A stretch of 64,000 nt of DNA from an uncultured Lachnospiraceae bacterium (GTDB lineage Bacteria; Bacillota; Clostridia; Lachnospirales; Lachnospiraceae): NCBI GenBank assembly GCA_947652735.1, contig CANTEG010000001.1:186001-250000 (forward strand), in the 5' to 3' direction. Of the stretch, positions 23,382 through 63,843 are shown in pieces (position 1 is the first letter of the stretch; each line of letters begins with the position of its first letter). The position numbers and the translations under genes are program-made. The notes below the pieces were generated by a model. That model ran no database searches. It had not been told where the DNA came from and was given only the letters and a program-made list of their open reading frames with translations.

Positions 23382-23498
23382 TCAAATAATTGTTTTGATA
23401 CTCAATATATTCAATAACAAACCCTTACTTTTGATATTCCAAAAAGTATTATAATGTTCTTTTAAGTTGCTACCTTTTATAAATACTTCTACAATTAT
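23382..23498 (-). CDS. Putative 38-aa protein with AUA start
   Basis: Minus-strand frame beginning ATA ATT GTA GAA, nine bases behind a perfect AGGAGG, with no ATG, and TTG only late in the frame. A 9-codon frame (MAKKKKIRR) ends within the SD just upstream and could act as a leader. Taken alone it is weak, but it matches the AUA starts seen in the rightward arm. Confidence 0.4.
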   Translation of the reverse strand: MIVEVFIKGSNLKEHYNTFWNIKSKGLLLNILSIKTII

Positions 23499-23664
23499 TT
23501 TTCCTTACCTCCTGATTTTCTTTTTCTTTGCCATTCTCAACCCATCAATCAAAATCCAGAGCTAATATACTATACTTCAACCGATATTAGTATTATTGAT
23601 ATGACAAAGTAACACCCATGTGGGACATTGCACCCACTAGACGCTTTTCGTTGGGTCTATGTAA

Positions 23665-23775
23665 TTATTTTGTAATAACTGTAAAGCCAGCCTTTTCGGC
23701 TTTTCTAATTTCTGCAAATGTCATTTCTGTTGTTGCTATGTAATTATTCTTTAATCTTATTTCTACCTTTACCAT
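23665..23775 (-). CDS. Small hypothetical protein (36 aa)
   Basis: Reads MVKVEIRLKNNYIATTEMT at the N-terminus, then FAEIRKAEKAGFTVITK. A strong AGGAGG lies before the ATG. It is the first gene after the structured non-coding region and could be controlled by the terminator-like hairpin at 23821-23885. Confidence 0.55.
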   Translation of the reverse strand: MVKVEIRLKNNYIATTEMTFAEIRKAEKAGFTVITK

Positions 23776-23820
23776 TGTTTTCTCCTCCTTTTGTTTTATT
23801 CTTTATTGTAAATTTGCAAT

Positions 23821-23885
23821 AAAAAATGTGATTCTAAGTCATGAGCTTATGTCGGACTGGTTCCCCGTCTACCGATGAATCACAT
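23821..23885 (-). terminator. Structured terminator at the end of the non-coding RNA region
   Basis: 9-bp stem ATGTGATTC/GAATCACAT (23877-23885 with 23826-23834) encloses a 42-nt internally folding loop and is followed on the minus strand by six Ts. It lies 46 bp before the 36-aa gene, so it could be a plain terminator for the ncRNA or an attenuator. Confidence 0.7.
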
Positions 23886-24172
23886 AAAGCAGTTTACAAG
23901 CAGTTTCTAATTTAGTGTTGCTATCAGATGTTACTTGCGTTCTGCTTTTAAGCTATAAGAAACATTCTTATAAAATGTGTACAATCTGTTTTAAATGGCA
24001 GGTGTACAAACTGCCAATGCCAGCACAATATTTAAAGTGCATTGCTAGTCTTGAGCACTTAGGAAGTATTAGCCGTTCCTTTGCCTTTTTTGCGTCTCCT
24101 AGTTTACATGTACTCTACGCTAATACCGTCATGGGTAATTATTTCGTATCGCTACTCTAACGATATAGAACA

Positions 24173-24213
24173 CTTGCAAGGATTTATCTTGTGGACGCTT
24201 GCAAGATTTTTTA
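24173..24213 (+). terminator. Possible plus-strand terminator
   Basis: CTTGCAAG/CTTGCAAG stem followed by ATTTTTTAA on the plus strand. It could end a rightward RNA or be a helix of the minus-strand RNA. Confidence 0.35.
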
Positions 24214-24220
24214 ATAAGAA

Positions 24221-24249
24221 AAGAGTGCCAAAAGGTTCTTGACACTCTT
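24221..24249 (-). terminator. Internal hairpin, possible terminator
   Basis: 11-bp stem AAGAGTGTCAA/TTGGCACTCTT (one GU) with a 7-nt loop, then TTCTTATT on the minus strand. Could end a ~500-nt RNA started at 24727. Confidence 0.5.
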
Positions 24250-24613
24250 TAAAAAATCATATTTGTTTGCTTCATTTATTTTTTAGAAAAAACATTTGCT
24301 GGATGTTTTTTCTCTTAATGACTTATGCATAACTTTGTTACTGTTCGCTTGTCATTTATAACTATTCTTTACATGTCTACTTTTCCAGGACTGGCTAACA
24401 GTGTCTAGGCTGTTTGTTTCTCTCACTCAACACAGCAACTAGAATATATTCAAGCTGCAATCACGTTTCGCATCATGTACAACCGGTTATAAGCAGTTGT
24501 TTGCAATGTGAAGTTGTAGACTGCCTATAACTGATTTAGGTTAGCGACTTGATACGTGTTAATTTCAAGTCGGTAATGATTGTTTGTTACTTTTAGTTTT
24601 GGGAAATTTACAC

Positions 24614-24642
24614 TTGAAAAGTGAATGTTGAAATGTTAGAAT
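24614..24642 (+). promoter_or_regulatory. Plus-strand promoter for a small RNA
   Basis: TTGAAA (24614-24619), 17-bp spacer, TAGAAT (24637-24642) with an extended TG. A near-identical promoter exists in inverted orientation at 25049-25077. Confidence 0.65.
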
Positions 24643-24648
24643 AATTAT

Positions 24649-24718
24649 GTAATCACTTTTAAGTGGTATGTGAGAAGCCGTTTCGTAGTTTGGTCGCTGT
24701 GAACGGCTTTTCGTATTT
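24649..24718 (+). ncRNA. Candidate ~70-nt antisense small RNA
   Basis: The region from the predicted start of the 24614-24642 promoter to a hairpin AAGCCGTT/AACGGCTT (24675-24682 with 24702-24709) followed by TTTCGTATTT, a good terminator. A second small stem CACTT/AAGTG sits near the 5' end. It is fully complementary to the first ~80 nt of the minus-strand transcript starting near 24727, the layout of a regulatory antisense RNA. Confidence 0.6.
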
Positions 24719-24733
24719 CCTTAACTTGTTTAT

Positions 24734-24762
24734 ATCTTATCATAATTCGAAACGATTGTCAA
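24734..24762 (-). promoter_or_regulatory. Minus-strand promoter for the structured RNA
   Basis: TTGACA (24757-24762), exactly 17 bp, TAAGAT (24734-24739) with an extended -10 TG. No start codon with an SD follows for ~900 bp, so it drives non-coding RNA. Confidence 0.7.
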
Positions 24763-24789
24763 CCTATTTTTATGAAATATTTCATATTT

Positions 24790-24996
24790 TTATGATTTAT
24801 CTTTCTTGTGTTCCATTATATCCCCTGGTTGGCAATTTAAGAAATCACATATTTTATCAATCGTTTTCATATTTACATACTCATTTTTAGATAATGCTGC
24901 TAATGTATTACTACCACAGCCAATAGCCTTTTTTAAGTCCATTTTACTTATACCTTTTCTATTAAGCATATCTAACAATTTATAATAAGTAATCAT
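24790..24996 (-). CDS. XRE-family regulator
   Basis: 68-aa Cro-like protein: YKLLDMLNRKGISKMDLKKA then IGCGSNTLAAL form the HTH, followed by KTIDKICDFLNCQPGDIMEH. This is the same compact type as the 3851 gene. SD GGTGGTGA. Two promoters lie upstream (25049-25077 and 25305-25333), the latter with an inverted repeat in its spacer. A likely lysogeny or early-gene regulator. Confidence 0.82.
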   Translation of the reverse strand: MITYYKLLDMLNRKGISKMDLKKAIGCGSNTLAALSKNEYVNMKTIDKICDFLNCQPGDIMEHKKDKS

Positions 24997-25048
24997 ATAT
25001 TCACCACCTTATATAATATAAGGAAATAATATCATATAGAAATAATTT

Positions 25049-25077
25049 TTTCTAGCATTTCAATATTCACTTTTCAA
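25049..25077 (-). promoter_or_regulatory. Promoter of the XRE gene
   Basis: TTGAAA (25072-25077), 17 bp, TAGAAA (25049-25054), extended TG. The sequence around it matches the plus-strand small-RNA promoter at 24611-24650. TTGTCA-aatc-TGACAA, an operator-like palindrome, lies just upstream. Confidence 0.6.
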
Positions 25078-25333: not shown

Positions 25334-25344
25334 TCATTTTTTGT

Positions 25345-25566: not shown

Positions 25567-25597
25567 GTATCCACCTTCCTTTATTATATTAAAAAAG

Positions 25598-25641: not shown

Positions 25642-25654
25642 CTACACTTATTGT

Positions 25655-27684: not shown

Positions 27685-28725
27685 ATGAACACACAAAACC
27701 AAAGAGAAATCTGGGAAATTTCCAAATATTCAAAATCAGAGATAAATAAAGCTGGTTCTATAATTGCATATTCATCATCATCTAAAGAAGATCGTGACAA
27801 TGCACTTATGATACTTAATAACTGGAGAGCTGCACATGCATATCCTTTACAGGTAATATGCAGTAATCTTCGTTCAAGAAATCCAGATGCAATTGTGGTA
27901 CAAAGATTGAAAAGATTGGATTCCATCACTGGTAAAATAGAAAGATTTCCAGATATGAGTTTATACCGTATGCAAGATTTGGGAGGATGTAGAGTTATTG
28001 TAGATATAATTGACCAAGTATACGAAGCTGTAGAAAGATATAAAAAATCTCGTATTCGTCATATTCTAAAGCGTGAATATGATTATATACAAAACCCTAA
28101 AGAATCAGGATATCGTTCTTATCATATGGTATACCAGTTCCACAGTGATAAAAAAGAAACATATAATAAAAATATGTTTATAGAGATACAGTTCCGGACA
28201 AAACTTCAACACATATGGGCAACTGCTGTGGAAATGATGGGCATATATACAAAATCTCAATTAAAGGCAAGTAAAGGTGATAAAGATGTATTAAGATTTT
28301 TTGTATTAGTTTCTTCAGTATTTGCTAAGATGGAAAATATGTCAATATGTCCAAATACAGTAGATGATTATAATATATTAATATCAGAAATACGAAAAAT
28401 AGATAATAAATTAAATCTTGTATCAAGACTTAGTGCATTATCAGTTGCAATTAATCATACAAATGCCAGTAAAAAAATGAAAGGCAAAGGATACTATGTT
28501 TTGATTTTGAATTACAAAGATAAATTATTAAAGGTACGAGGCTTTTCACCTAACCAGATTGAACTGGCAACAAAAGTTTATAATGATATCGAAGCAACCA
28601 ATAACCCAGAAGTAGATGTTGTATTAGTATCAGCAACATCCTTCGACACATTAAAAGCAGCATACCCAAACTATTTTACGGATATTAGCCAGTTTGTGGA
28701 TATGATGAGAAGAATTCTATCTTAA
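27685..28725 (+). CDS. RelA/SpoT-type nucleotide synthetase (toxSAS/CapRel-like)
   Basis: 346 aa. The synthetase fold is clear: ALMILNNWRAAHAYPL near the N-terminus, RLKRLDSITGKIERFP, MQDLGGCRVIV, ESGYRSYHMVYQF and EIQFRTKLQHIWATAVE. Family enzymes transfer pyrophosphate to (p)ppGpp or, in toxSAS toxins, to tRNA or adenine nucleotides. The NWR-HAYPL form resembles prophage CapRel-like proteins. A better SD (GGAGG) precedes an in-frame ATG at 27622 followed by AAT TAA, so codon 3 is a stop; ATG 27685 has only a weak SD. A terminator follows the gene. Confidence 0.82.
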   Translation: MNTQNQREIWEISKYSKSEINKAGSIIAYSSSSKEDRDNALMILNNWRAAHAYPLQVICSNLRSRNPDAIVVQRLKRLDSITGKIERFPDMSLYRMQDLGGCRVIVDIIDQVYEAVERYKKSRIRHILKREYDYIQNPKESGYRSYHMVYQFHSDKKETYNKNMFIEIQFRTKLQHIWATAVEMMGIYTKSQLKASKGDKDVLRFFVLVSSVFAKMENMSICPNTVDDYNILISEIRKIDNKLNLVSRLSALSVAINHTNASKKMKGKGYYVLILNYKDKLLKVRGFSPNQIELATKVYNDIEATNNPEVDVVLVSATSFDTLKAAYPNYFTDISQFVDMMRRILS

Positions 28726-30655: not shown

Positions 30656-30800
30656 GAAATATGTCTGTCTTTATTAAATAGGTTTTATTTTAATTCTGTT
30701 CAGTTGATGTGAATTTTGTCACATGAAAAATTGCTGTTTTATAAAAACCATGTGCTTTTTTACACGTTTACTGAACTCTCGTAGAAAAGGAGAAAGTATT

Positions 30801-31619
30801 ATTAGCACACAAAATAAAAAGAAGGAATACTTTACAAGATTCCCCAATGAATATATTCAAGGAAATATCAAAACAAAATTTGGAGTTAGTAGAAAGTTTT
30901 ACATTACTTATATATTGATAGACAAATATAGGTCTTATGAAGATTATAGTTGGATAATAATTCGTAAAGTGCTTGATTTTTATGGATATAAAACTCATCG
31001 AAACAAGCCAAAAGCATTTAAAGAAATATTAGATGTTTTGGAATATATGATAAATAACAAAATGATTGAAGTGAAACAAGACCTAGACTCTCTTTCTTAT
31101 GATACTGGTATTGAAATCAAAATAATTCCAGACAATTTTGATTTTCCTGATAAATTTGCAAAACTCACAGCTTCACAATTTGACACAATTATGATGGCTG
31201 ACAGTTCAGTCAACAGAGAAAGTATTTTGATGGCATTTTTATATATTAACTCATATATAGGTTGTCGTAAGAGAAATGATGACGGTTCTGAGTACGAAAA
31301 TGCAAAAGATAACCCAGAAGCATTTTATAGAAGTATTAAAAATATGGCTGAAGAATTATCTATGTCAAAAGATACTATTAACCAATGTATAGAATATTTA
31401 ACTACATCCTCAGATAACATACCTGCACTACTTATAAAAAAAGAAGTAGGTAGTATACAGCCAGATAAATCTAAACCACCACAGAATGTACCAAATATAT
31501 ATGTTTTAAACAAGGAGGGATATAAACAGGAAATTGAATGGGCTTTGAATAAAATGTTGGAATTATATAAAGTAAATAAATTTTATCCGCTTAAAAGTGG
31601 GAATTACAGATTTAAGTAG
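30801..31619 (+). CDS. Helix-turn-helix protein, possible replication initiator, AUU start
   Basis: About 272 aa. An AAAAGGAG SD ends eight bases before ATT AGC ACA CAA; an upstream in-frame ATG at 30723 has no SD, so AUU is preferred. The N-terminal half resembles a winged-helix Rep/DnaD-type module, with a second HTH at ELSMSKDTINQCIEYL near residue 195. Placement after Rha and before nucleotide-metabolism and transcription genes fits a replication or middle-gene regulator. No family is certain. Confidence 0.55.
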   Translation: MSTQNKKKEYFTRFPNEYIQGNIKTKFGVSRKFYITYILIDKYRSYEDYSWIIIRKVLDFYGYKTHRNKPKAFKEILDVLEYMINNKMIEVKQDLDSLSYDTGIEIKIIPDNFDFPDKFAKLTASQFDTIMMADSSVNRESILMAFLYINSYIGCRKRNDDGSEYENAKDNPEAFYRSIKNMAEELSMSKDTINQCIEYLTTSSDNIPALLIKKEVGSIQPDKSKPPQNVPNIYVLNKEGYKQEIEWALNKMLELYKVNKFYPLKSGNYRFK

Positions 31620-33094: not shown

Positions 33095-33113
33095 GAATGG
33101 TGGTGAATTAACT

Positions 33114-35882
33114 ATAGCAAAACAGCAATCGTGTCATAAATTTATTTACAAATTACCAAGCAAGCGATTAAAACAGGCAAGATGGAATCTTACTCTTCCC
33201 CTACAATTTGCCATAAAAAACAAAAATGATATTGTAGCACTTAACGATAGTCAGATTCTTCGTTGGATTTGTGAACTAAATGGTGTTGAGAATTTGGATT
33301 TTGAAGTATCTAAATTAAAGAAAGAAATAAAATTCATTAAAAAGCAACCCAAAAGCAAAGAAAACAAGAAAAAAATCAAAGAATTATATGAAAAACTATA
33401 TTCGTTGCAATATCAGAAAGATTACTTTTGTATGATTATGAATTCTGATAAAGACTATGATAGAGCAAATCAAGGATTTAAAATAAACGATTATAAATAT
33501 CATAGATTGCTTGGAACCAATGGTGGAATCAAAAAATCAACCATTACATATATAGGGGACAATATTTACAAAGAGATTGTGAGACGGATGGATAATGGTA
33601 GAGATAAAACGAAACCAATTATCCCTGCTAAATTAGAAGCATATCAGGCACTTATTTGCAGTGGGTCTATACCAGTTACGATGCCTAGAATATTAGTGGT
33701 TAATGATTGTAATGTAACTTTTAGAGAAAACGTTATTAGAATCAGCGATGAATGTGAGGGTGAACCACAACTTACATATGAAGAAAATTATAAAATAGAA
33801 TATTGTGACTCTGATGGATATGGATTTATGTCACCAGATTATTCTCGTATCATCAATAAAGATTTATATGGTGATGAGTTTGCAGGACAAACCATATCTG
33901 GGGTAAATACCCGATATGCATGGACTAAGGGGATGTTATTTACATTTGACTTTGTAGAATTTGCGAAAAGAGTAAATCATGAAATATATAAGGTTAAAGA
34001 TGCATGGGGCGAATGGAGAGATGTGAGGGATTACGATGTAATACTTACCACTTCTATGGTTAAGCTATGGGATTCTTATGAAAGTCTTGAGCATTTTATA
34101 AATTGCTGTAATGAAAATCATTATCAATTTTCTATCGCAAAAACTACACCTCATGAACTAGAGAATGTTAGGAATTCAAATTATCAATTTTTACAAACAT
34201 ATAATTTGAATGATGAAGAACTTTATGAATTGTGTAAACCAACGATTGATGAAATTACAGATGTATTAGGTTGTGATTGGAGAAAATCAATCGTGTTTGC
34301 AAAAGGAATGTATCTTAATGAAGATAATATAGATTGCATAGATGATGATTTCATTAAGGCAATTATGATAGATAAACGCCTATTGGATGATTCTTTTGTT
34401 TTAAGAAAAATTCATTCTATGATAAAAAAGAGGATTTCAGATGCAGCAAAAGGCTCTATTAAACTAAGTGGGAATTTTGCCATTGTATCTGGTGATTTAT
34501 ATTCTCTTGCACAGTCTATATTTGGTCTGACGGTTACAGGACTACTAAAATCAGGCGAGGTTTATCATAAATACTGGATTGATAAGAATATTGATGAAAT
34601 TGCCTTATTTCGTGCCCCTATGACTTGCCATAATAATATTAGATGTAGAAAAGTTGTACATAATGAGGAAATGGATTTTTGGTATCAATATAATATGACT
34701 GGGATTATTTTAAATTCGTGGGATACTACTTGTGATGCCCTTAACGGAGCTGATAAGGATTCTGATACTTTTTTTTCAACAGATAATAAAATAATAATTG
34801 AACACACTTTAAATTCGACAACAATTGAATGTATGCAAAGAAAAGTTGAAAAAATTATACCAACAGAAGATGATATGGTACAAGCAAATAAACTTGCATT
34901 TGGAGATGAAATTGGCACTACTACAAACAGAATTACGTCAATGATTGAAAGGCAAGCGGCTTTTGATAAGGATAGTGAAGAATATAAAGTTTTGGATTAT
35001 CGAATTATGTGTGGTCAACACTATCAGCAGACGGCTATCGACAAGGCAAAAGGCATTATTGCTAAGCCCATGCCAAAATATTGGTATGATAAATCAATTT
35101 GTAATAAATTACCTGAAGATACAGAAGATCAAAAACAATTCAAAGAGTTATGTTTAAGAATCGTAGCTGAAAACAAACCATACTTTATGAAGTATGTGTA
35201 TCCTGACTTGATGACAAAATATAATAAATATATTAAAAACACAAATAGTAAATGCATTAGAGAATTCAAAATGGCTATGTTTGATCTAATTAAAAAACCG
35301 AATAAGACTATTCGGGAAAAGGAATTTATTGAGTATTATAAAAAACTTATGCCAGTTGGTGATAACCCATGTACTATCAATCGTATCTCATGGTTGTTTG
35401 AAGATACTTTTAAATCATATATTTGTAAGTATGGTAAAACCAAAGAATTCGATTATTCTATTTTAAAATCTGGTGTTGAATACAGCAAATATGATTATCA
35501 GAGAATCTCAAAAATAAAATCTGAATATGAAGATTCTGTAAAATACTATCAACAATTAGCTAATAAGCAGCGTTTGGATAAAGATGAAGTAAGTGTGAAT
35601 AGAAATATGATGCTACTAAAGTTTAAGGCAAAATGCGGAGAAATCTGTTCAAATGAAAAAGAACTGTGTGATATTGTAATTGACCTTTGTTACTCTTCTT
35701 CTAAATCTAAACAGTTTGCATGGGATATTTGTGGAGAAGTTATCATTGAAAACTTATTAGAAAAGAATGGTCATATAATTAATTATCCTGTTTTAGTTAA
35801 GTCAAATGGTGAGTTTGAATTCGGTGGTGAACAATTTATTATGTGCCAGAAGAGATTTGAGGAGGATGAAGAACTATTATAA
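33114..35882 (+). CDS. Phage single-chain RNA polymerase, YonO/QDE-1-like, AUA start
   Basis: 922 aa. Two signatures of the double-psi beta-barrel RNA polymerase superfamily are visible: RAPMTCHNN near residue 500, equivalent to the R-x-P...P/N motif of cell-encoded RdRPs and YonO, and NGADKDSDTFF with Asp547, Asp549 and Asp551, equivalent to the metal-binding D-x-D-G-D, here with Ser replacing Gly. Length is close to SPbeta YonO (~900 aa), a phage DNA-dependent RNA polymerase. It probably transcribes the late genes. Start chosen at ATA, eight bases behind GGTGGTG; ATG at 33054/33060 would overlap the previous gene and lacks good spacing. Confidence 0.75.
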   Translation: MAKQQSCHKFIYKLPSKRLKQARWNLTLPLQFAIKNKNDIVALNDSQILRWICELNGVENLDFEVSKLKKEIKFIKKQPKSKENKKKIKELYEKLYSLQYQKDYFCMIMNSDKDYDRANQGFKINDYKYHRLLGTNGGIKKSTITYIGDNIYKEIVRRMDNGRDKTKPIIPAKLEAYQALICSGSIPVTMPRILVVNDCNVTFRENVIRISDECEGEPQLTYEENYKIEYCDSDGYGFMSPDYSRIINKDLYGDEFAGQTISGVNTRYAWTKGMLFTFDFVEFAKRVNHEIYKVKDAWGEWRDVRDYDVILTTSMVKLWDSYESLEHFINCCNENHYQFSIAKTTPHELENVRNSNYQFLQTYNLNDEELYELCKPTIDEITDVLGCDWRKSIVFAKGMYLNEDNIDCIDDDFIKAIMIDKRLLDDSFVLRKIHSMIKKRISDAAKGSIKLSGNFAIVSGDLYSLAQSIFGLTVTGLLKSGEVYHKYWIDKNIDEIALFRAPMTCHNNIRCRKVVHNEEMDFWYQYNMTGIILNSWDTTCDALNGADKDSDTFFSTDNKIIIEHTLNSTTIECMQRKVEKIIPTEDDMVQANKLAFGDEIGTTTNRITSMIERQAAFDKDSEEYKVLDYRIMCGQHYQQTAIDKAKGIIAKPMPKYWYDKSICNKLPEDTEDQKQFKELCLRIVAENKPYFMKYVYPDLMTKYNKYIKNTNSKCIREFKMAMFDLIKKPNKTIREKEFIEYYKKLMPVGDNPCTINRISWLFEDTFKSYICKYGKTKEFDYSILKSGVEYSKYDYQRISKIKSEYEDSVKYYQQLANKQRLDKDEVSVNRNMMLLKFKAKCGEICSNEKELCDIVIDLCYSSSKSKQFAWDICGEVIIENLLEKNGHIINYPVLVKSNGEFEFGGEQFIMCQKRFEEDEELL

Positions 35883-36631
35883 TTTTAAACGAAAAGGAGT
35901 ATGTTGACAACATACTCCAAGATAAAAATATTGAGCCGTCTAAAGCATATACATTTTTAAGTATGTATGCAAGATATTTATATCATGAAAAAGGGTTGCG
36001 AAAAGTAAGCATAATTAAAGAACTAAATAGCTTTATGGATAAAAATTATCCACATTACAATCCTGTTGATTGGAGTATAAGTTTAGAGAAATATGCCAAT
36101 AAAGCTGGAAAATATCCTTTGTGTGAATGTAGAGGGGTTTGGATTACGGAAAATGAATTAAAAACCATTGAAGAAATACATGATAAGGTACTTGAACGAC
36201 TTGCTTTTACTCTCCTATGTCTGGGTAAGTTTAGAAATTTCAGAAATCCTAATAACAATAGCTGGGTAACTTATAGTAATGGAGAAATATATTCTATGGC
36301 TTGTATCAATACTACTGCTTTTGAAAAGGATATTAAATTTAGCAAACTAAAAGAACTTGGACTTATTGAATATGCCAAGAAAGTTAATAACCTAAATATT
36401 CAGGTTTTATATATAGATGACACGAGTAAAAATAAACTTTTTATATCTGACTTTAGAAAACTTGGATATGAATGGCGATTGTATAAAGGTGAAAAATATA
36501 TCAGATGTTCCGATTGCGAGATTTTAATAAAAAAGAAAAATAATAATCAAAGATACTGCAAGGATTGCTCAAATATAGTCAGAAATGAACGACAAAAAAA
36601 CATTATGAGAGAAAGAAGAAAAAAATGTTAG
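35879..36631 (+). CDS. Zinc-finger protein downstream of the RNA polymerase, non-AUG start
   Basis: About 250 aa, with a basic C-terminal Cys4 finger (IRCSDCEILIKKKNNNQRYC then KDC). No ATG occurs before 35963, but GAGGAGG (35859-35865) precedes an ATT ATA pair at 35876-35881, where ATA overlaps the polymerase stop as ATAA. The protein may bind nucleic acid and assist the polymerase. The exact start (ATT, ATA, or a later ATA) is open. Confidence 0.6.
   Translation: MILNEKEYVDNILQDKNIEPSKAYTFLSMYARYLYHEKGLRKVSIIKELNSFMDKNYPHYNPVDWSISLEKYANKAGKYPLCECRGVWITENELKTIEEIHDKVLERLAFTLLCLGKFRNFRNPNNNSWVTYSNGEIYSMACINTTAFEKDIKFSKLKELGLIEYAKKVNNLNIQVLYIDDTSKNKLFISDFRKLGYEWRLYKGEKYIRCSDCEILIKKKNNNQRYCKDCSNIVRNERQKNIMRERRKKC
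35896..35918 (+). repeat. Perfect hairpin covering an AAGGAG
   Basis: GGAGTATGTT-gac-AACATACTCC: a 10-bp stem with a 3-nt loop at the start of the zinc-finger gene. Could sequester an internal ribosome-binding site. Confidence 0.65.
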
Positions 36632-37013: not shown

Positions 37014-37088
37014 CGCGGGGTGGAGCAGTCAGGTAGCTTGTCAGCCTCATAAGCTGAAGGTCGTGAGTTCAAATCTCACTCTCCGCGT
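37014..37088 (+). tRNA. tRNA with CAU anticodon, initiator-like body
   Basis: Cloverleaf with acceptor CGCGGGG/CTCCGCG, D-arm GAGC...GCTT, anticodon arm TCAGC-CTCATAA-GCTGA (CAT at 37048-37050) and T-arm GTGAG-TTCAAAT-CTCAC. The 5' half (CGCGGGGTGGAGCAG), A11:U24 and the CTCATAA loop match bacterial initiator tRNA. It has C1:G72 instead of the initiator mismatch, lacks the three G:C anticodon-stem pairs, and carries one extra T between the T-stem and the acceptor. CCA is not encoded. It could read AUG, or AUA if C34 becomes lysidine. Confidence 0.85.
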
Positions 37089-37202
37089 CTATTTTGTCTG
37101 TTTTGTAAAATAGACCTCCGTCACGAGGCTTGTCGTCAATAGCCCACAAATTGTAAATATATCACAGTTTAAATAAAATATATGGATGAAAGGAAAAATT
37201 CT

Positions 37203-37415: not shown

Positions 37416-37431
37416 AGAGTAGGTGTTTTAA

Positions 37432-38625
37432 ATAAATAGTCAGACACTAATACAACCTAATGAAACACCAAAGGCATATCGTATTCGTTTATATAAGAAC
37501 AAAGAATTATACGGATTAAACAACGAAGAAATCGGTAAGTTATGTAATGAAGCATTTGGGGTAGAGTGGACTGAATCTGCTCACAGAAAGAAAACACAGA
37601 ATTATCTTAAAGGATATAATGATGCAAAGGCGGAGTTAGGCAATGCAGATCAGCAGCTACAAAATATGATTGATGAAAATAAGAGGCTTATTAAAGAAGT
37701 AAAAAAAGAAAAACAAAAACTCTCGGATGAGCGTGTTGAGTTTAATAGGCAAATTCGTCAAGAGGCACGAAAAGAATCATATGCAGATATGGTTAAGAGA
37801 ATTATTTGTGAAAATGTTGAGCCTCTGAATATTCAAATGAATCATACGCTATTTAATAGTGAAACGGATTTATTGTGTCATTTGACAGATATTCATACTG
37901 GTATAGAGATTAATAATTGGAAGAACACTTTTAATGAAGAGGTTTTAAAACAGCGTATTGAAAAATATACATCAGATATCCTTGATATTTATAGATTGCA
38001 CCAATCACAAGATTGCTATTTAGTTATTGGTGAAATTCTATCAGGTCTTATACATAGTAATCTAAGATTACAAAATAATATGGATCTAATGGAGCAATTC
38101 AAATACGTTTCAGAATTAATTTCTATTATGTTAGTAAAATTAGCAAATAATTTTAATCATGTTTATGTATATACTACCCCCGGTAATCATAGTCGTATTG
38201 TTGCAAAGAAAGAAGATGCTTTAGATGGAGAAAATATGGATATATTACTTCCATTCTATCTTAAAGCAAGACTACAAAATGTTGAAAATATTAATATTTG
38301 TGATAATACTATTGAGCCAGAAATTGCCATGTTTAGCATTCGTGGTAAAACTATTATGTCCGCACATGGACATAAAGATAGTCCATCCAATGTTGTACAG
38401 AATTTTACTATGATGTTTTCAATAAAGCCAGATATAGTGTTGTTGGGACATCGTCATTTGAATGGTTTAACCACTGTATATGACACAAAAGTGATTGAAA
38501 GTGGCTGTGTATCAGGTTCAGACCAATTTGCTGTATCAATTAGAAAAACAAATAAACCAGAACAAACGGTATCAGTTATTGGTAAAAATGGTCTGATCTG
38601 TTTGTATGACATACAACTTGACTAG
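37432..38625 (+). CDS. Metallophosphoesterase, AUA start
   Basis: 397 aa. The C-terminal ~250 residues are a calcineurin-like fold: DIHTG (D153, H155), VIGEILSG, GNHSR (N252, H253), AHGH (312-314) and GHRHLN (H340, H342), enough ligands for a two-metal site. The N-terminus has a small HTH-like region (GLNNEEIGKLCNEAFG) and a coiled coil. An in-frame TAA lies directly before ATA, AGGTG is six bases upstream, and no ATG, GTG or TTG occurs until about codon 79, so AUA initiation is strongly implied. Comparable to SPbeta YonJ by position and type. Substrate unknown. Confidence 0.8.
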   Translation: MNSQTLIQPNETPKAYRIRLYKNKELYGLNNEEIGKLCNEAFGVEWTESAHRKKTQNYLKGYNDAKAELGNADQQLQNMIDENKRLIKEVKKEKQKLSDERVEFNRQIRQEARKESYADMVKRIICENVEPLNIQMNHTLFNSETDLLCHLTDIHTGIEINNWKNTFNEEVLKQRIEKYTSDILDIYRLHQSQDCYLVIGEILSGLIHSNLRLQNNMDLMEQFKYVSELISIMLVKLANNFNHVYVYTTPGNHSRIVAKKEDALDGENMDILLPFYLKARLQNVENINICDNTIEPEIAMFSIRGKTIMSAHGHKDSPSNVVQNFTMMFSIKPDIVLLGHRHLNGLTTVYDTKVIESGCVSGSDQFAVSIRKTNKPEQTVSVIGKNGLICLYDIQLD

Positions 38626-49048: not shown

Positions 49049-49069
49049 AAAGGATGGTGATAAATAAGA

Positions 49070-50716
49070 ATGTCAGAAGAAATGAAATCTGAGACAGATA
49101 ACATTCAAAAACAGACCAATGAAGATTTTGATGTTATCTTTGTTTCAAAAGCAGATGATGGCACAGTGATCGCTACTACACCATTATCTATTCGTGACCA
49201 AAAGCTTCAATTAGCATTAAGCCAGTATGATCCAGAAAACAAAAAATATTCTGTATATCTTAACGAAGGCATATCACCATCTAAATCAATATCAGTTGAA
49301 GAAATCGAAGAACTTTCCACCAATACTCAAAATGATTTAAATAAGGTTTTAAGAATCAATGCTTATAACAGAAAACTTATTAACAAAAATGATATTGTTG
49401 GAAAGACAGTAGAATCAATTGATACCAATATAAATACAGAAATCAAACTTACATATGGAAATGTTGACGATGGGAGAAATAAGAAAAAGAAATTAGAAGA
49501 ATGTAAGCGGTTTATCAAGGATTTTAATAATTCTATTAAAGTGCAGCAGTTGACAAGAAATGCTATCACTACTTCTTATGTTGAGGGAAACTGGATTTCA
49601 TATCTCCGGCATGAAGACCCCAATAATTATACTGTAGATATTTATCCATTGGGTGTTTGTGAAATTACAGAAACAATGGTAAATGGAGAGCCTATTATAT
49701 GGTTTAATATCAAGGAATTGCGTAAGAGACTTCAAAAGGTATATCGAAAAACAAAGAAAAGAAAGCCTTTGATGTTTGAAAATATGGAGGAAGAAGTAAA
49801 GAGCAGTTATCCAAAAGAGGTTTATGAGGCATTCATCAACAAAGAGGACTATGCTGTTTTAGACCATAAATATACGGGGATTATCCGTATCAATAATCTT
49901 AACCGCAAATATGGTGTCTCTCCCATTTTAAGGGCTTATACAGATTTGAGTATGCTTGATACTTTTGCAGACGCAGACAGGATAAATAGCAAGGCAAAGG
50001 CTAAAAAGATAATTCACCAGAAGATGCGCAAAGAGACTATGGGACAGGATTATAATAAAGATTTCTTTCCAGAGGTAAGTTATGCACATTCTAACTTTAT
50101 GGACGCATTTAAGCAGAATACGGTTGTTGTCACTTCTCCTCCTACTGTCGAGGAGATTTCTTATGTTGAACCAAAAGTAGAAATGACTTCCAAGGATACT
50201 TATAATATTTATCGTTCAAAGGTGTTATCTACTCTCGGTATTCAGTTTTTAATGGATAGCGGATCTCAGTCTGTATCTACTGCTTCTATATCGGTTACAC
50301 AGCTCATGCGTACTATAAACGCAATTTCTGAACAGTTAGAAGATATTCTGAGAAAATGGTATAGACAGATTATTTTGGATAATGGTTATCCTTTAGAATA
50401 TTCCCCTGATGTGAATGTTATTGACACAGAACAGTTAGAAGCAGAATTAAAACATTCTTTGGCTACTCTTCTATTCAGTACAATGAACTGTTCTTATTCT
50501 ACTGCTTTTGAAATTCTTGGTTTGGATATTAATGACGAAGTCCAGAAAAGAACAAGGGAAAATGAATTAAAATATGATGAAATATTTAAGCCTCATGATA
50601 GCCAATATACAAAATCAAGCAATATCAATAATGATGACCAAGGTGGTCGCCCTGCTGACTCAGATAATAAAACAAAACAGCAGTATGACAAAACAAGACA
50701 GGAGGCATTGAAGTAA
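49070..50716 (+). CDS. Portal protein
   Basis: 548 aa, the size and position of a portal. Features include the N-terminal wing/stem region, a TYGNVDDG segment, a crown/clip region with RINSKAKAKKIIHQKM and SQSVSTASISVTQLMRTINA, typical of siphophage portal helices. ATG chosen; an ATA two codons upstream, also behind the SD, is possible. It forms the dodecameric ring for DNA entry. Equivalent of SPbeta YonE. Confidence 0.82.
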   Translation: MSEEMKSETDNIQKQTNEDFDVIFVSKADDGTVIATTPLSIRDQKLQLALSQYDPENKKYSVYLNEGISPSKSISVEEIEELSTNTQNDLNKVLRINAYNRKLINKNDIVGKTVESIDTNINTEIKLTYGNVDDGRNKKKKLEECKRFIKDFNNSIKVQQLTRNAITTSYVEGNWISYLRHEDPNNYTVDIYPLGVCEITETMVNGEPIIWFNIKELRKRLQKVYRKTKKRKPLMFENMEEEVKSSYPKEVYEAFINKEDYAVLDHKYTGIIRINNLNRKYGVSPILRAYTDLSMLDTFADADRINSKAKAKKIIHQKMRKETMGQDYNKDFFPEVSYAHSNFMDAFKQNTVVVTSPPTVEEISYVEPKVEMTSKDTYNIYRSKVLSTLGIQFLMDSGSQSVSTASISVTQLMRTINAISEQLEDILRKWYRQIILDNGYPLEYSPDVNVIDTEQLEAELKHSLATLLFSTMNCSYSTAFEILGLDINDEVQKRTRENELKYDEIFKPHDSQYTKSSNINNDDQGGRPADSDNKTKQQYDKTRQEALK

Positions 50717-56382: not shown

Positions 56383-56397
56383 TGGAGGTGAATATTT

Positions 56398-56889
56398 ATA
56401 GGAAAATCACGAAGTTATGAGATTATCGAATATCGAAAACTCATAGAAAAAGAAATCTGTAAATCCCCAGAACTTATAAAATTACTTGGCTGTGAAAACG
56501 AAGAATATCCAGAAGATATTATTCCATATAAATATTCATTTCCGCATGAATACATTCCAGGTACTCAACAAGAAACCGACAGGTTTATTAATTACGAAAT
56601 TAGTGCAGCCATTGATGCGAGGAATAATACCTTCAAGGATCTTACGATATATTTCTTTGTTGTATGCCACGAAGATATAATCAAGTACAAAGAAAAAGGA
56701 ATTACTTATCTTTGGTATGACAGGGCAACTTGCGCATTAGATAATATATTTTGTGAAAAGAATGTATTAGGTATAGGTAAAACATTATTGATCAGCAACA
56801 CTCCATACTGTCCGCAAAACAAATTCAAAGGAAGGTTATTAAAATTTATAGTTAAAGATTTTAATAATGGATTGAAATATGGGAAGTAG
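56398..56889 (+). CDS. Tail-region protein with AUA start and no methionine codon
   Basis: 163 aa starting ATA GGA AAA TCA, nine bases behind GGAGG, after an in-frame TGA. The whole frame has no ATG and only late TTG codons, yet it fills the interval exactly and overlaps the next gene by 11 bp. N-terminus GKSRSYEIIEYRKLIEKEI; later IYFFVVCHEDIIKYK and LLISNTPYCPQNKFKGR. By position a tail terminator/completion protein. Strong single case for AUA initiation. Confidence 0.72.
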   Translation: MGKSRSYEIIEYRKLIEKEICKSPELIKLLGCENEEYPEDIIPYKYSFPHEYIPGTQQETDRFINYEISAAIDARNNTFKDLTIYFFVVCHEDIIKYKEKGITYLWYDRATCALDNIFCEKNVLGIGKTLLISNTPYCPQNKFKGRLLKFIVKDFNNGLKYGK

Positions 56890-59247: not shown

Positions 59248-59262
59248 ATGGAGTGATATAAA

Positions 59263-59469
59263 ATAAAGGAATATAGCAAAATATTTAATAAAGAATATCA
59301 AATTGAAAATACTGTTAAAATTGTAAACACTCGTCAAGCAGGGCTTTATATTAAGCATAAAATTCCTCTTGTTGATTTATTTTGGTCAAAAAATTCATTA
59401 GTTTTTGTATTCAACAGAGAAGATAGTAAAGAAGTATACGACTTGTGGTGTAAACGAGAACTAAATTAA
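59263..59469 (+). CDS. Small protein with AUA start, paralog of previous gene
   Basis: 68 aa: ATA AAG GAA TAT, nine bases behind GGAG and after an in-frame TGA; the only alternative start codon in frame is a TTG near the end. Sequence KEYSKIFNKEYQIENTVKIV ... FNREDSKEVYDLWCKRE aligns with the preceding gene, showing the frame is real. Confidence 0.66.
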   Translation: MKEYSKIFNKEYQIENTVKIVNTRQAGLYIKHKIPLVDLFWSKNSLVFVFNREDSKEVYDLWCKRELN

Positions 59470-59491
59470 TAATTGTGATTAGGAGATTTTA

Positions 59492-61012
59492 ATGGAAAAT
59501 TGGATAGATTTAAGTAATGTACCGAAGAAAAATGGCATTGGTAAATATAAAGATAAATTAGTTACTGATTGGGGTAAGTGTTGTGGTTGCAAATGCAAAT
59601 TTCAATATAGAAATATTGAAGCTGAATTAGAACTATTAAAGTATGATAGAAAGAAAAATAGAATTTATTTTCTTTATAATAACCAAGAGTATAATTTGTC
59701 CTTTAAGGGATTTATGGATGTAAATTTTAAATCAATTTTAGGAATTCATGATATTACATATAAATATAATATAGGAGAAATTATTAATACTCAAAATGCT
59801 TCAATCATAATTTTACAACAAACATATGCAATAAGTTCAGTTGGACGTAGAAAATCTGTATATAAAGTAAAATGTTTAAAATGTGGTCATACTTATGTAT
59901 TAGATCAAGATAGAATACCCAAATTTGAATACTGTCCTGTATGTATAAATAGGATTATTGTAAAAGGTATAAATGATTTATGGACTACTAATCCAGAAAT
60001 AGCAAGTTTGTTTACTAATAAAGATGACGGATATAAATATTCAAAATGTAGTAATGCAAAAGTAAATTTTACTTGTAAATATTGTGGAGAATCAAGTAGA
60101 CATTTCGTTTCTGTAGTTGCAAACTCTGGTCGTGTTCCATGTACTTGTTCTAATTCATATTCATTGCCTAATAAAATTATGTTTTATATATTAAAAGAAT
60201 TGTCAATAAATTTTGAAAAAGAAAAAACTTTTAGTTGGTCTAATGGTAAAAGATATGATTTTTATATTGAAAATTTATCAACAATTATAGAAATGCATGG
60301 TGGGCAGCATTATAAGATGGTTCCCAAATTTGATAAAACCGAAAATGATTTTATTAAACGAGTTAAAAATGATAATTGGAAAAAAGAAATTGCATTAAAA
60401 AATAATATAAAAAATTATATTGTTATAGATTGTAGAGTTAATACTTTTGAAAGTATACTAAAAAATATCTTATCTTGTAATTTATCAAATATTATAGACA
60501 TTTCCAATATTAATATTGAAAATATTAAGAAAAATATTTATGCAAATATTTGTGAAACGATCTCAGAATATTGGAACAATGGCATATATGAAACAAATAA
60601 AATTGCAGATTATACAGGTTTAACTAGAGAATTTGTAGTCAACAAACTGCATTTATGTGATGAACTTGGATTAATTAATTATGATAAATCGTTATCAAAG
60701 AAAATTTCGCAAGAATATATAACTGCAAACAGATACCAACATTTTGCAAAACCATTGAAATGTAATGAACTTGATTTATATTTTGGAAACAATGCAATTG
60801 CAAGTAAAGAACTCAGTCAAATTTTAAAAAAAGATGTATTACCAAATAATATTTCAAGGGTACTTTTAGGTATAAGAAAATCATATAAAGGATATACATT
60901 TTCTTATATTTCCCGTTCGGAATTTAATAAAAAGAAAATAGAATTACAAAACAAGACATTTGGAGATTTATTTTTAGTAGAGGATGGATTATATAATGAA
61001 TGTGTATCTTGA
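59492..61012 (+). CDS. Zinc-ribbon and PDDEXK (Vsr-like) endonuclease-like protein
   Basis: 506 aa behind AGGAG. Several Cys fingers (CCGCKCKFQ; CLKCGHTY ... YCPVCINR; CKYCGESS ... CTCSN), then a restriction-endonuclease fold: GKRYDFYIENLSTIIEMHGG with Asp256, Glu267 and Gln272, typical of Vsr/very-short-patch-like phage nucleases. C-terminal HTH-like segments (NKIADYTGLTREFVVNKL). Overlaps the cysteine desulfurase gene by 17 bp, implying a joint function or at least coupled expression. Confidence 0.78.
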   Translation: MENWIDLSNVPKKNGIGKYKDKLVTDWGKCCGCKCKFQYRNIEAELELLKYDRKKNRIYFLYNNQEYNLSFKGFMDVNFKSILGIHDITYKYNIGEIINTQNASIIILQQTYAISSVGRRKSVYKVKCLKCGHTYVLDQDRIPKFEYCPVCINRIIVKGINDLWTTNPEIASLFTNKDDGYKYSKCSNAKVNFTCKYCGESSRHFVSVVANSGRVPCTCSNSYSLPNKIMFYILKELSINFEKEKTFSWSNGKRYDFYIENLSTIIEMHGGQHYKMVPKFDKTENDFIKRVKNDNWKKEIALKNNIKNYIVIDCRVNTFESILKNILSCNLSNIIDISNINIENIKKNIYANICETISEYWNNGIYETNKIADYTGLTREFVVNKLHLCDELGLINYDKSLSKKISQEYITANRYQHFAKPLKCNELDLYFGNNAIASKELSQILKKDVLPNNISRVLLGIRKSYKGYTFSYISRSEFNKKKIELQNKTFGDLFLVEDGLYNECVS

Positions 61013-62090
61013 TAATGCTGCATTAAAAAAACCTAATAATGATATTATAGAATGTGTATCAAATATATTGAAAAATAATTGGAATAATCCAAATTCAATA
61101 TATGATGTAGGTGTAAAATCAAAACAATTAATAGATAATGCAAAATCTATAATATCAAAAGAAATCAATTGCGACAAAAATGAATTGATATTTTGTAGTT
61201 GTGGTTCTGAGGCAAATGCTCTTGCAACTGTTGGATATATTCGTGCTAATAATAAAAAACATTTTATTACCAGCACAATAGAACACGCAAGCATATTAGA
61301 AAATCCATATGCAAAGAAAATTATTACTGTTGATAAAGATGGACATTTTAATATAGATGCTGTTAAAAATATTCATGATTCATTGGTTTCATTACAAATG
61401 GCGAATTCTGAAATTGGCACAATACAAGACATAAAAAATATTGTTAAAATTCTGCACAATAATAATTGTATTGTACATACTGATGCTGTTGCTGCTTTTG
61501 GAAAAATAAAGATTGATGTAAAAGAATTAGATATTGATATGCTTACTGCTACAGGACAAAAAATTGGCGGTATATTAGGTGGTGCATTTTTGTATAAAAA
61601 GAAAAATATAAAAATTGAACCTATAATATATGGACATAATACTTTGCGTGGAGGAACTCCAAATGTTGCTGCAATAGCTTCTATGGGCAAGGCTGTGGAG
61701 TTATTCAACTACTCTTCCATATCTTCATCTAATAGAGATTATGTATATGATTACATTTTGAATAACATTCCAGATAGTTATTTAATCGGTGCATCAATTG
61801 AATCTGGTAATAGATTACCACACAATTTATATATGGCTTTTAAAGGAATTGAAGGGGAAAGCTTAATGATACTTCTTGATATGTATGGAATATGTGTATC
61901 CGTTGGTAGTGCATGTTCTAGTGGGGAATTAACTCCTAGTTCAACTTTAGTCGCTATTGGTATGAATGAACAAGATATTCATTCATGTATACGCTTAAGT
62001 TTCGGTGCGGAAACCAAAGAAGAATTAGATTATGTATGCGGAAAATTAAAACAGTGCGTTGAAAATTTGAGAAAGTTGAACACACAATAG
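60996..62090 (+). CDS. Cysteine desulfurase (NifS/IscS/DndA family)
   Basis: 364 aa. PLP enzyme that takes sulfur from cysteine. Motifs: YLDNAALKKP start, PLP-stacking His97 in STIEHAS, Schiff-base Lys189 in ATGQKIGG, and the persulfide Cys307 in GSACSSGELTPSS. Length is typical. Phage copies are rare; sulfur could go to DNA phosphorothioation, tRNA thiolation or Fe-S assembly. ATG behind GAGGA; overlaps the nuclease gene. Confidence 0.88.
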   Translation: MNVYLDNAALKKPNNDIIECVSNILKNNWNNPNSIYDVGVKSKQLIDNAKSIISKEINCDKNELIFCSCGSEANALATVGYIRANNKKHFITSTIEHASILENPYAKKIITVDKDGHFNIDAVKNIHDSLVSLQMANSEIGTIQDIKNIVKILHNNNCIVHTDAVAAFGKIKIDVKELDIDMLTATGQKIGGILGGAFLYKKKNIKIEPIIYGHNTLRGGTPNVAAIASMGKAVELFNYSSISSSNRDYVYDYILNNIPDSYLIGASIESGNRLPHNLYMAFKGIEGESLMILLDMYGICVSVGSACSSGELTPSSTLVAIGMNEQDIHSCIRLSFGAETKEELDYVCGKLKQCVENLRKLNTQ

Positions 62091-62169
62091 AATGGCAATT
62101 TCAAAAGTAAAAGGTTGCTCAAGACAATGGGTGTAAAAGTAGATGACGTACTTGTGATGAAGTACTTAA

Positions 62170-62212
62170 TATAAGTGAAAAATAGTCAAGCAAGTCTGCT
62201 ATTTCCCTTATA
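62170..62212 (+). terminator. Hairpin after the desulfurase gene
   Basis: TATAAG...CTTATA with GAAA-AATAG/CTATTTC, followed by TAATTAAAAATTT; moderate terminator. Upstream, GTACTT-gtgatg-AAGTAC adds a second stem. Confidence 0.5.
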
Positions 62213-62254
62213 ATTAAAAATTTAAACAGTAACACATTTTAGGAGGAGTTTATT

Positions 62255-62638
62255 ATGGAAAATATAATAAAAAATATAGATTGGATGCAGGTAATATCTG
62301 TTATTTGGACGGCTGTGCTACTACCTATTATTACATATGTAGGAACGCAGATTAGTGCTTATATGAAGTCAAAAAGATTAGATAAATATACAGATATATT
62401 ATATGACAATGTAGTTAATGCTGTTAAAGATGTGTATGAAACTATAGTAAAAGATATTAAAGGCAGTGACGATTGGACAGAAGAAAAGAAAAATGAAGTA
62501 AAGGAAATTGCCAAAACAAAGGCAATACAAGCATTATCCAATTCTGCTTACGAAATCTTAAAAGCGGCAAATGGTGATTTTGATAAATATTTGGACGGAC
62601 TCATCGGCACTGCATTGTATGATTTAAAAAATTATTAA
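62255..62638 (+). CDS. Holin (LLH-like)
   Basis: 127 aa. One N-terminal membrane helix (VISVIWTAVLLPIITYVGTQ) followed by a charged amphipathic region with DDWTEEKKNEVKEIAKTKAI: the layout of LLH-family phage holins. It would release an endolysin, probably encoded beyond the window. Confidence 0.78.
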   Translation: MENIIKNIDWMQVISVIWTAVLLPIITYVGTQISAYMKSKRLDKYTDILYDNVVNAVKDVYETIVKDIKGSDDWTEEKKNEVKEIAKTKAIQALSNSAYEILKAANGDFDKYLDGLIGTALYDLKNY

Positions 62639-62657
62639 ATAAGGTGGAGCTGTATGG

Positions 62658-63167
62658 ATGGAGGCAATTAAAGAACTAACAACACTTAACTTTTCTTTAA
62701 TATTTATTTCGGTTTTCATTATTTTTACTGGGATTAAGGCAATTGTTTCGTTGGCTGAATGGTTTTTTAAAAAACTTGGTCTTGAAACAAAATGGATGAA
62801 AAGAAAACGTGAGGATCATGAATTATTGATTCAAACATCTCAAAATGTTTTAGAATTACAAAATAAACATATGGAAGATATGAAAGAGTCAGATAAACAT
62901 GATGAAGAAATGCGTAAAGATATTAAAAATCTTACAGATCTATTTGTAGAAAAGCAAATTAGTGATTTTCGTTGGGAAATTATTAATTTAGCAGATAAAA
63001 TTTCAAATGGTAAAGTAATAAGTAGAGAATGTTATAAACATGCTATTTCAACATATGAAAGGTATGAAAAAATAATTGAAGAAAAGGGTCTGACAAATGG
63101 TGAAGTTGAGATTTCTATTCAAATTATAAATGATTCTTATAAACAAAAATTAAAAGAAGGATTTTAG
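62658..63167 (+). CDS. Second membrane protein, possible holin partner
   Basis: 169 aa. N-terminal helix (FSLIFISVFIIFTGIKAIVS), then a long coiled coil (EDHELLIQTSQNVLELQNKH). Adjacent to the holin and in the same unit; may be a second holin or an antiholin-like protein. Confidence 0.58.
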   Translation: MEAIKELTTLNFSLIFISVFIIFTGIKAIVSLAEWFFKKLGLETKWMKRKREDHELLIQTSQNVLELQNKHMEDMKESDKHDEEMRKDIKNLTDLFVEKQISDFRWEIINLADKISNGKVISRECYKHAISTYERYEKIIEEKGLTNGEVEISIQIINDSYKQKLKEGF

Positions 63168-63174
63168 CAATAAT

Positions 63175-63342
63175 ATGGAAACACTTCAACCAGAAATTTG
63201 CGAAGATGGGTGGTATTGCTACTGCCCTCTTTGTGAATATTATGATTTGATTCCCAATATTCATAATAAATGTCCCAAATGTGGACAATTGATTAGCTGG
63301 GATTGGTTTAAAAAAGATAAAGATAAAATTGATACATTATAA
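63175..63342 (+). CDS. Small zinc ribbon protein (55 aa)
   Basis: Cys4 ribbon CYCPLCEYYDLIPN ... KCPKCGQLISW, like the C-terminal ribbon of the 16660-17004 protein. Starts 8 bp after the preceding stop. Phage adaptor of unknown partner. Confidence 0.66.
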   Translation: METLQPEICEDGWYCYCPLCEYYDLIPNIHNKCPKCGQLISWDWFKKDKDKIDTL

Positions 63343-63408
63343 TTGTTTTAAGAGCGATTTCATTTTTATTTGGAGTCGCTCTATTATTATGTACAGGGGA
63401 GTGATTGT

Positions 63409-63843
63409 ATAACAACTATATCATTAATTATAAATAATAATACTTTGTTTGAATATGAAAAATATTATTTCAAGTTACATCCACGAGCAAGAAAAAAACC
63501 AATAGAAAACCCATATCACCCTCTTATGAATCAATGGATGATAATGAAAAGACCAATGATGAATGCATTAAAACAAAAATGGAAAGATTTCATAAAATGG
63601 TTTATTGAAAATCAAGGTTATACTAACCTACACATAGAAAAATGTGAAATGACGTTTATTACATATTATAAAACAAATCGTAGACATGATGTGGATGCAG
63701 CATGTCCAAAATTTATTTTAGATGGCTTTGCGGAAAGTGGTTTTATTGTGGATGATGATAGTAAACATGTTACTTCTCTCTTGTTGAAATGCTATGTAGA
63801 CAAAGAGAATCCCAGAACTGAGGTCGAGGTGATTATTTATTAA
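63409..63843 (+). CDS. RusA-like Holliday junction resolvase, AUA start
   Basis: 144 aa from ATA ACA ACT ATA, just behind GGGGAGTGAT. The in-frame TTG at 63370 lacks an SD. RusA signature: SLIINNNT near the N-terminus, RPMMNALKQKW, and catalytic acidic cluster in RRHDVDAACPKFILDG with VDDDSKHV following. RusA cuts four-way junctions during replication and packaging. Overlaps the next gene as TAATG. Confidence 0.82.
   Translation: MTTISLIINNNTLFEYEKYYFKLHPRARKKPIENPYHPLMNQWMIMKRPMMNALKQKWKDFIKWFIENQGYTNLHIEKCEMTFITYYKTNRRHDVDAACPKFILDGFAESGFIVDDDSKHVTSLLLKCYVDKENPRTEVEVIIY

Follow-up and report, generated by a model that had tools for sequence, protein, structure and literature searches.

Probable use of AUA, AUU and AUC start codons in a group of SPbeta-like phages of clostridial bacteria

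The window described here is a stretch of 64,000 nucleotides (positions 186,001 to 250,000 of contig CANTEG010000001.1, assembly GCA_947652735.1) from the 2.77 Mb genome of an uncultured Lachnospiraceae bacterium, and it carries a prophage in its right part. In this prophage and in a group of related AT-rich, SPbeta-like phages of clostridial bacteria, the codons AUA, AUU and AUC (together AUH) probably act as genuine start codons, which would be read by an ordinary initiator tRNA behind an extended Shine-Dalgarno (SD) sequence and gated by initiation factor 3 (IF3); we put the probability of this reading at about 0.6. A first-pass annotation of the window had proposed such an initiation habit for AUA and AUU. 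The habit exists, extends to AUC and is common to related phages, the evidence being the exchange of codons at homologous start columns and a pooled excess of AUH codons at SD spacing.

Landmarks of the prophage are a YonO-like RNA polymerase (33114-35882), an exonuclease (37432), an HU-like protein (38855), a terminase (47201) and a RusA-like resolvase (63409). The polymerase matched Pfam RdRP (3.2e-08, above the cut-off), phrog_25339 (1.2e-187) and 35 phage records, among them phages of the Bacillus SPbeta group that are about 25-30% identical to it; in SPbeta-like phages YonO is a single-chain RNA polymerase, according to the accessible part of the source (PMC5467207). Judged by the polymerase and by the families in common with phage phi3T (YonO-like, HU-like, exonuclease), the prophage is SPbeta-like, a label in which gene order had no part. 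Relatives came from IMG/VR and from GTDB genomes (29 loci), and are cited below by our working labels. The gene finder and the SD score were written for this analysis, and the same script was applied to the clade and to the controls. The start sites in question are the following.

30801..31619, plus strand: gene with an ATT start; SD aaaaggag at 30785-30792; homologue column.
33114..35882, plus strand: YonO-like RNA polymerase gene with an ATA start; SD-like ggtggtga at 33099-33106; homologue column, Pfam and PHROG.
35876..36631, plus strand: gene following the polymerase, with an ATT start; SD gaggaggatga at 35859-35869; overlaps the polymerase stop.
37432..38625, plus strand: exonuclease (calcineurin-like phosphoesterase) gene with an ATA start; SD gtaggtg at 37419-37425; phrog_284 (2.7e-51).
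56398..56889, plus strand: putative virion protein gene with an ATA start; SD ggaggtga at 56384-56391; weak match to phrog_6123 (0.0071).
59263..59469, plus strand: small gene with an ATA start; weak SD ggagtgat at 59250-59257; phrog_31036 (1.8e-06).
63409..63843, plus strand: RusA-like resolvase gene with an ATA start; SD aggggagtgat at 63395-63405; phrog_1682 (2.8e-18).

The plus strand between 26031 and 63990 holds 3706 ATA, ATT or ATC triplets, 153 of which follow an SD scored at -9 kcal/mol or stronger, so that single sites prove little and homologues are needed. The most extensive comparison is that of the polymerase. At its start column, 32 sequences have ATA in 7 cases (the window, L002, L003, L216, L220, L223 and L241), ATG in 13, TTG in 7 and another codon in 5 (L222, L237, L238, L240 and L244), each of the last five with a standard codon at most two codons downstream. 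L244 has ATA at the column with ATG next to it; it was left out of the AUA-start count, yet is among the eight ATA rows of the tree described below. Between the preceding stop and codon 17, L003, L216, L220 and L241 contain no in-frame ATG, GTG or TTG, whereas the polymerases of the window, L002 and L223 do. Upstream of the window ATA these codons are GTG 33054 and ATG 33060, and the polymerase start was accordingly placed at 33114 because homologues put it there, not because the frame is closed. Replacement of ATA by ATG in close relatives had been named as a sign of sequencing error; ATG, and also TTG, indeed occurs in relatives at the homologous position, yet ATA is present in seven sequences on different contigs. 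Exchange of codons at one column across different contigs points to a real replacement of start codons, and speaks against sequencing error as well as against misplacement of the starts. A tree built from 30 polymerases requires six changes of the ATA label, three of them forced by well-supported branches. Clustering of the label is not clear, since 96 of 500 shuffles needed no more changes, and the descent of the polymerase appears not to be tightly tied to its start codon.

Misplaced starts would mean that translation begins at standard codons elsewhere, either at the GTG contained in the SD's GGTG or at ATG, GTG or TTG upstream or downstream, the ATA or ATT being an internal isoleucine codon or untranslated. 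Codons that could serve are present: the two in the window polymerase frame, a GTG two codons upstream in L002, an ATG four codons upstream in L223, a GTG within the SD of the G204 exonuclease, in-frame ATG at 30723 and 30750 upstream of 30801, and an in-frame TTG at 63370 upstream of 63409. The ATG and TTG codons of relatives, however, fall exactly at the ATA/ATT column, several frames are without a nearby standard codon, and the SD spacing aims at the AUH codon, so that we regard this explanation as highly improbable. Frames closed off by upstream stops, as first described for 37432, 56398 and 59263, were confirmed; they open at 37432, 56392 and 59257, and the first ATG, GTG or TTG follows only 78, 130 and 60 codons downstream of the respective start. 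Default start-codon rules miss such genes, and would open the exonuclease at 37666, 78 codons late.

All of the ATA and ATT codons first listed, including one on the minus strand, are present, each with an SD-like sequence before it, the weakest being that of 59263 (-7.8). Among these eight sites, 30801, 33114, 35876, 37432 and 63409 are well backed by homologue columns and 56398 and 59263 weakly. For 56398 the comparison is with a G201 homologue of 24% identity, which has ATG at the aligned column. The 59263 frame had been described as aligning with its ATG-started neighbour (59050); that similarity is weak (11 residues, E 0.2), the best match is to G200 (E 0.017), and the site is based on its closed frame, its SD and its PHROG match. 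The eighth site is unbacked.

23382..23498, minus strand: ATA candidate of 38 codons behind a good SD, unsupported as a gene; the homologue search for it went as far as PHROG, where it had no match.

Other families vary at their start columns as well. The exonuclease column has ATT in G204 (with the in-frame GTG mentioned above), ATA in L216, and in G207 an ATG one codon earlier; at the position matching the RusA start, G200 has ATT and L223 ATC. In the 30801 family, L220 has ATT at the column, and L216 (ATT) and G195 (ATG) have theirs near it. The DNA polymerase III alpha gene of G200 (Pfam DNA_pol3_alpha, 1.7e-22) has an ATA start behind an SD, with a PHP domain match from residue 4; it opens with ATA AAT AAT TAT CAT AGA CAT, compared with ATG AAG AGA TAT GAA AAT TAT CAT in G198. 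Across nine phage sets, 25 of 78 families have at least one member in which the best SD is aimed at ATA, ATT or ATC with no standard codon at that spacing; some of the 25 are doubtful, having an ATG next to the codon or an internal SD. The exonuclease protein of the window also gave a Pfam Metallophos_2 match below the cut-off. Two relatives have exonuclease genes of unusual structure: that of L014 (L014:8001-9211) shares 82% of residues 1-60 with the window's exonuclease and 27% beyond, as if its N-terminal part had been swapped, and that of L011 (L011:8001-10936) is interrupted by about 1.7 kb of other DNA, which may be an intron or homing-endonuclease insertion. The YonO-like gene of phage CB457P1 (OP172753.1:242-3772) is in three pieces, possibly for the same kind of reason.

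The gene following the polymerase, whose protein has a weak C-terminal zinc-ribbon match below the Pfam cut-off, has ATT at its start column in 14 of 32 sequences, ATA in 2, ATC in 1, ATG in 6 and TTG in 6, and ATG one codon upstream in 3. L227 was counted as ATT though its second codon is ATG; L231/L247, L232/L242 and L228/L229 are near-copy pairs; G207 and CB457P1 matched the protein but stand outside the 32 sequences. Here the AUH start might be a special case that works only by termination and reinitiation from the overlapping polymerase stop and tells little about the other genes: the stop TAA sits within ATT ATA ATT, the SD lies inside the 3' end of the polymerase gene, and the family keeps AUH even in a relative of 49% GC (L239). 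The frames before 33114, 37432, 56398 and 59263, however, end 19, 16, 15 and 15 bases upstream with no overlap, and reinitiation is judged a very improbable account.

Pooled counts were obtained from eight related contigs (the window phage, G195, G196, G198, G200, G201, G204 and G207) with 716 genes. The test class comprised the 66 genes whose frame opens close to a strong SD and in which no standard start stands behind an SD. Of these, 43 have an in-frame ATA, ATT or ATC at SD spacing 5-10, whereas the +1 frame gave 10 and the +2 frame 9; the two-codon background in the coding sequence of these contigs is 0.145-0.177. In 600 kb of the host, 505 genes gave 6 in the test class, 3 of them AUH. 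The remaining controls were seven phage regions with 396 genes in all, namely phi3T, Clostridioides, MT835481, Staphylococcus SPbeta-like, PMBT24, CB457P1 and the window's left 26 kb; they gave 20 in the test class, with 5 AUH in frame, 8 in the +1 frame and 2 in the +2 frame. The clade (43/716) thus differs from the host (3/505; p = 1e-7) and from the other phage regions (p = 8e-5). The left 26 kb, which carries an integrase and a ParB-like gene, contributed 0 of 44 genes, and in phi3T (50 kb tested), unlike in the window phage, the habit was not apparent (2 of 61 genes in frame, and 2 also in the +1 frame). The AUH share is uneven among the pooled contigs (G195 9/54, window 5/54, G204 4/26, G207 4/31, G196 8/172, G200 5/141, G201 4/89, G198 4/149), and seven further related loci outside the pool gave 0/5 (L004), 2/16 (L006), 1/7 (L009), 0/9 (L010), 1/19 (L012), 1/11 (L013) and 0/16 (L048). 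The four contigs with a phage initiator tRNA have ATA in 13 of 28 cases (1.4 expected), ATT in 6 (2.6) and ATC in 3 (0.7); the other four have ATT in 12 of 38 (3.4 expected) and ATA in 10 (1.6). Other sense codons listed had small-number excesses only, e.g., ACA (5 vs 1.35) and CTG (2 vs 0.27).

Under the same SD filters, the motif GGTG precedes 20 of 28 ATA starts compared with 72 of 405 ATG starts (p = 4e-9). For other phage starts the figures are 4/18 (GTG), 24/64 (TTG) and 3/6 (ATC), and in the host 42/301 (ATG), 5/23 (GTG) and 9/22 (TTG). For ATA and TTG at least, this gradient fits an extension of the SD towards the start that offsets a weak start codon. The exchange of codons, the SD spacing and the extra GGUG before AUA can be read directly from the sequences; on that basis the AUH starts are most likely weak starts rescued by SD extension. 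In such a scheme the ordinary initiator tRNA (CAU) would read AUH through a third-position mismatch, the extended SD (GGAGGUGA and similar) would pair with the 16S rRNA tail and make up for this by prolonging the stay of the start codon in the P site, and proofreading of AUH starts by IF3 would leave protein at a reduced level, tunable by IF3. A special phage factor would not be strictly needed, and a phage initiator tRNA may help where present.

Several points weigh against this reading. ATT starts are little enriched in GGTG (7/26), and the SD energy before AUH is barely stronger than before ATG overall (p = 0.04), with a score that assumes its anti-SD sequence instead of taking it from the host 16S rRNA. 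The pooled counts reuse homologous genes and hence are not independent. The habit is absent from AT-rich phages with YonO-like genes (CB457P1, 1/103; 30 kb of PMBT24, 1/34; both phages of Enterocloster) and from other AT-rich phage regions (Clostridioides, 0/57; Staphylococcus SPbeta-like, 0/43); AT content and a strong SD are therefore insufficient, and the explanation misses something. The measured relatives with ATG or TTG polymerase starts have a GC content of 0.349-0.54, compared with 0.30-0.324 in the ATA users apart from L223, which has 0.40 (the loci may include host flanks), and they differ in gene neighbourhood too, so that descent, composition and habit are confounded.

A rival explanation is a trans-acting phage factor that would make AUH starts efficient in infection, either a variant initiator tRNA or a protein that loosens the selection of starts by IF3 or by the P site of the 30S subunit; the genes with AUH starts would in that case act as a translational switch. 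The failure of AT content alone to explain the habit is in keeping with this, as is the following gene of the window.

37014-37089, plus strand: initiator-like tRNA(CAU) gene, found by ARAGORN and Rfam; altered anticodon stem, encoded CCA absent, extra base at the junction of T arm and acceptor stem.

In the usual numbering, this tRNA has the CAU anticodon and the A11:U24 pair of the D stem, both as in bacterial initiators, but is without the three G:C pairs 29-31/39-41 (A29:U41, G30:C40 and C31:G39, against GGG/CCC in the host copy), so that some of the anticodon-stem pairs inspected by the 30S subunit are changed. At 1:72, which is unpaired in bacterial initiators, it can form C1:G72 after a one-base insertion; the copies in L002, L011 and L008 have mismatches. 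A covariance model applied to 47 sources found an initiator-like tRNA in the window, G195, G204 and G201 only (83-91 bits; the rest at most 53.5). The accessible part of a study of variant initiator tRNAs reports that swapping the 30:40 pair weakened discrimination against CUG (PMC11497404); the window tRNA keeps this pair as G:C. The AUH rate per gene is somewhat higher where a phage initiator tRNA is present (22/223 vs 33/571), without reaching significance (p = 0.06).

Against such a factor, AUH starts occur without a phage initiator tRNA in G196, a contig of 127.5 kb that may be incomplete, and the L241 prophage has AUH starts in a draft genome whose single initiator tRNA scores like those of other hosts. 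Viral contigs fetched for their initiator tRNAs were without the habit (7/77 in frame, 7/77 in the +1 frame), a weak control in that it covered 80 of at least 120 stretches, excluded loci below 3 kb, was mostly GC-rich and may include many host tRNA genes from the borders of prophages. In a family comparison over partial genomes, no protein family was found that all users have and other phages lack; Pfam scans, which covered twenty frames of the window, gave no translation factor, and the IF3 C-domain, searched for in the genome that contains the window, gave one copy, on another contig. The L220 genome gave two equal initiator tRNA hits, whose contigs could not be tied to the prophage. The first-pass suggestion that a phage factor may be needed is thus left without support, given AUA-start relatives that have no initiator tRNA and the weak association. 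The initiator tRNA was set aside as an established cause and kept as a rival, since relatives without it still use AUH starts; a trans-acting factor in general is considered unlikely, though the most serious of the alternatives. Less likely again is the narrower form in which the phage would itself alter initiation, through a variant initiator tRNA or an IF3 antagonist, and so make AUA, AUU and AUC efficient only in infection; the polymerase, the exonuclease and the virion genes with such starts would then be expressed weakly in the lysogen and more strongly on induction.

The position of the tRNA gene is itself of note. A slot at most 2.5 kb downstream of the 35876 gene holds a single tRNA in 6 of 7 ATA-polymerase phages, namely initiator Met in the window (37014-37089) and in L002 (L002:12824-12900), Asn in L003 (L003:11897-11968), Gln in L216 (L216:8396-8467) and L223 (L223:13791-13863) and Lys in L241 (L241:13705-13780). 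None of the 16 closer relatives with ATG or TTG, in each of which 2.1 kb or more could be inspected, has such a single tRNA there, and the slot holds 2-3 tRNAs in the more distant relatives L237, L238, L240 and L244. L005 (5391-5468) and L007 (7345-7420) have, upstream of the exonuclease gene, an elongator-type tRNA-Ile with a UAU anticodon, which would read AUA directly. In the related phage contig L010, ARAGORN found a tRNA with a CUA anticodon (4768-4854), possibly an amber suppressor.

Reassignment of AUA to methionine in this group would account for AUA at the start positions of several genes. In 1605 alignment cells from twelve relatives, however, the internal AUA codons of six AUA-start polymerases stand opposite isoleucine in 60% and methionine in 4%, a pattern similar to that of ATT (70% and 4%), whereas ATG aligns with methionine in 69%; AUU and AUC starts also occur beside AUA. 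The idea was rejected, and we give it practically no credence.

One further candidate, absent from the first-pass annotation, is ambiguous.

49064..50716, plus strand: candidate ATA start behind agaaaggatggtgat at 49047-49061 (SD energy -14.0, spacing 7); ATG 49070 lies two codons on and gives a frame of 548 amino acids.

Other genes of the phage include one of the class V aminotransferase family (60984-62090), which we take to be cysteine desulfurase-like, and a RelA/SpoT-domain protein (27685-28725) at the left end of the rightward arm.

The nearest known system is infC, the IF3 gene, with its AUU, AUA or AUC start behind a strong SD. The window's host is apparently alike, its infC having an apparent ATT start behind GGAGGTG (an ATG five codons later is the alternative). 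As in infC, AUH stands here where homologues have AUG or UUG, behind a strong or extended SD at proper spacing (the GGTG being clear for ATA and weak for ATT). Unlike infC, a single autoregulated cellular gene, several genes of related phages are concerned, and control by IF3 would be by analogy. The accessible part of a report on Staphylococcus aureus describes AUA starts in ccpN, citZ and infC and an AUU start in cvfC1, names an extended SD for infC, cvfC1 and ccpN, and gives expression of about 10% of that from AUG for cvfC1, ccpN and citZ, with up to 30% for ccpN (PMC13009471). The phages resemble this set in having AUA and AUU starts and an extended SD in a Firmicute; they differ from the four isolated sites described there in their recurrent habit and in the exchange of AUA, AUG and UUG among homologues. 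In Streptomyces sigR, the annotated GTG lies inside the SD AGGAGGTG and the real start is a downstream GTC repressed by IF3, as stated in the accessible part of the source (PMC5472188). A real start downstream of a mis-annotated GTG embedded in the SD is the likeness; GTC instead of AUH, and a cellular regulator instead of phage genes, are the differences. In the open-access literature, a scope outside which most subscription papers and all of bioRxiv fall, no description of recurrent AUA or AUU starts in any phage was found.

For annotation, the consequence would be that rules limited to standard starts place the polymerase start 20 codons early and the exonuclease start 78 codons late, and render the 56398 gene as a short fragment or miss it. 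Related prophages occur in the cultivated strains Lacrimispora algidixylanolytica SPL73, [Clostridium] aerotolerans DSM 5434 and Clostridium sp. 12(A), where the polymerase starts with TTG and the next gene with ATT or ATA, and the habit is therefore testable at the bench. Single genes with an AUH start are already known; phages that use such starts recurrently, with natural replacements among AUG, UUG, AUA, AUU and AUC in homologues, offer a ready comparison of how SD strength and start-codon strength may be traded off in Firmicutes.

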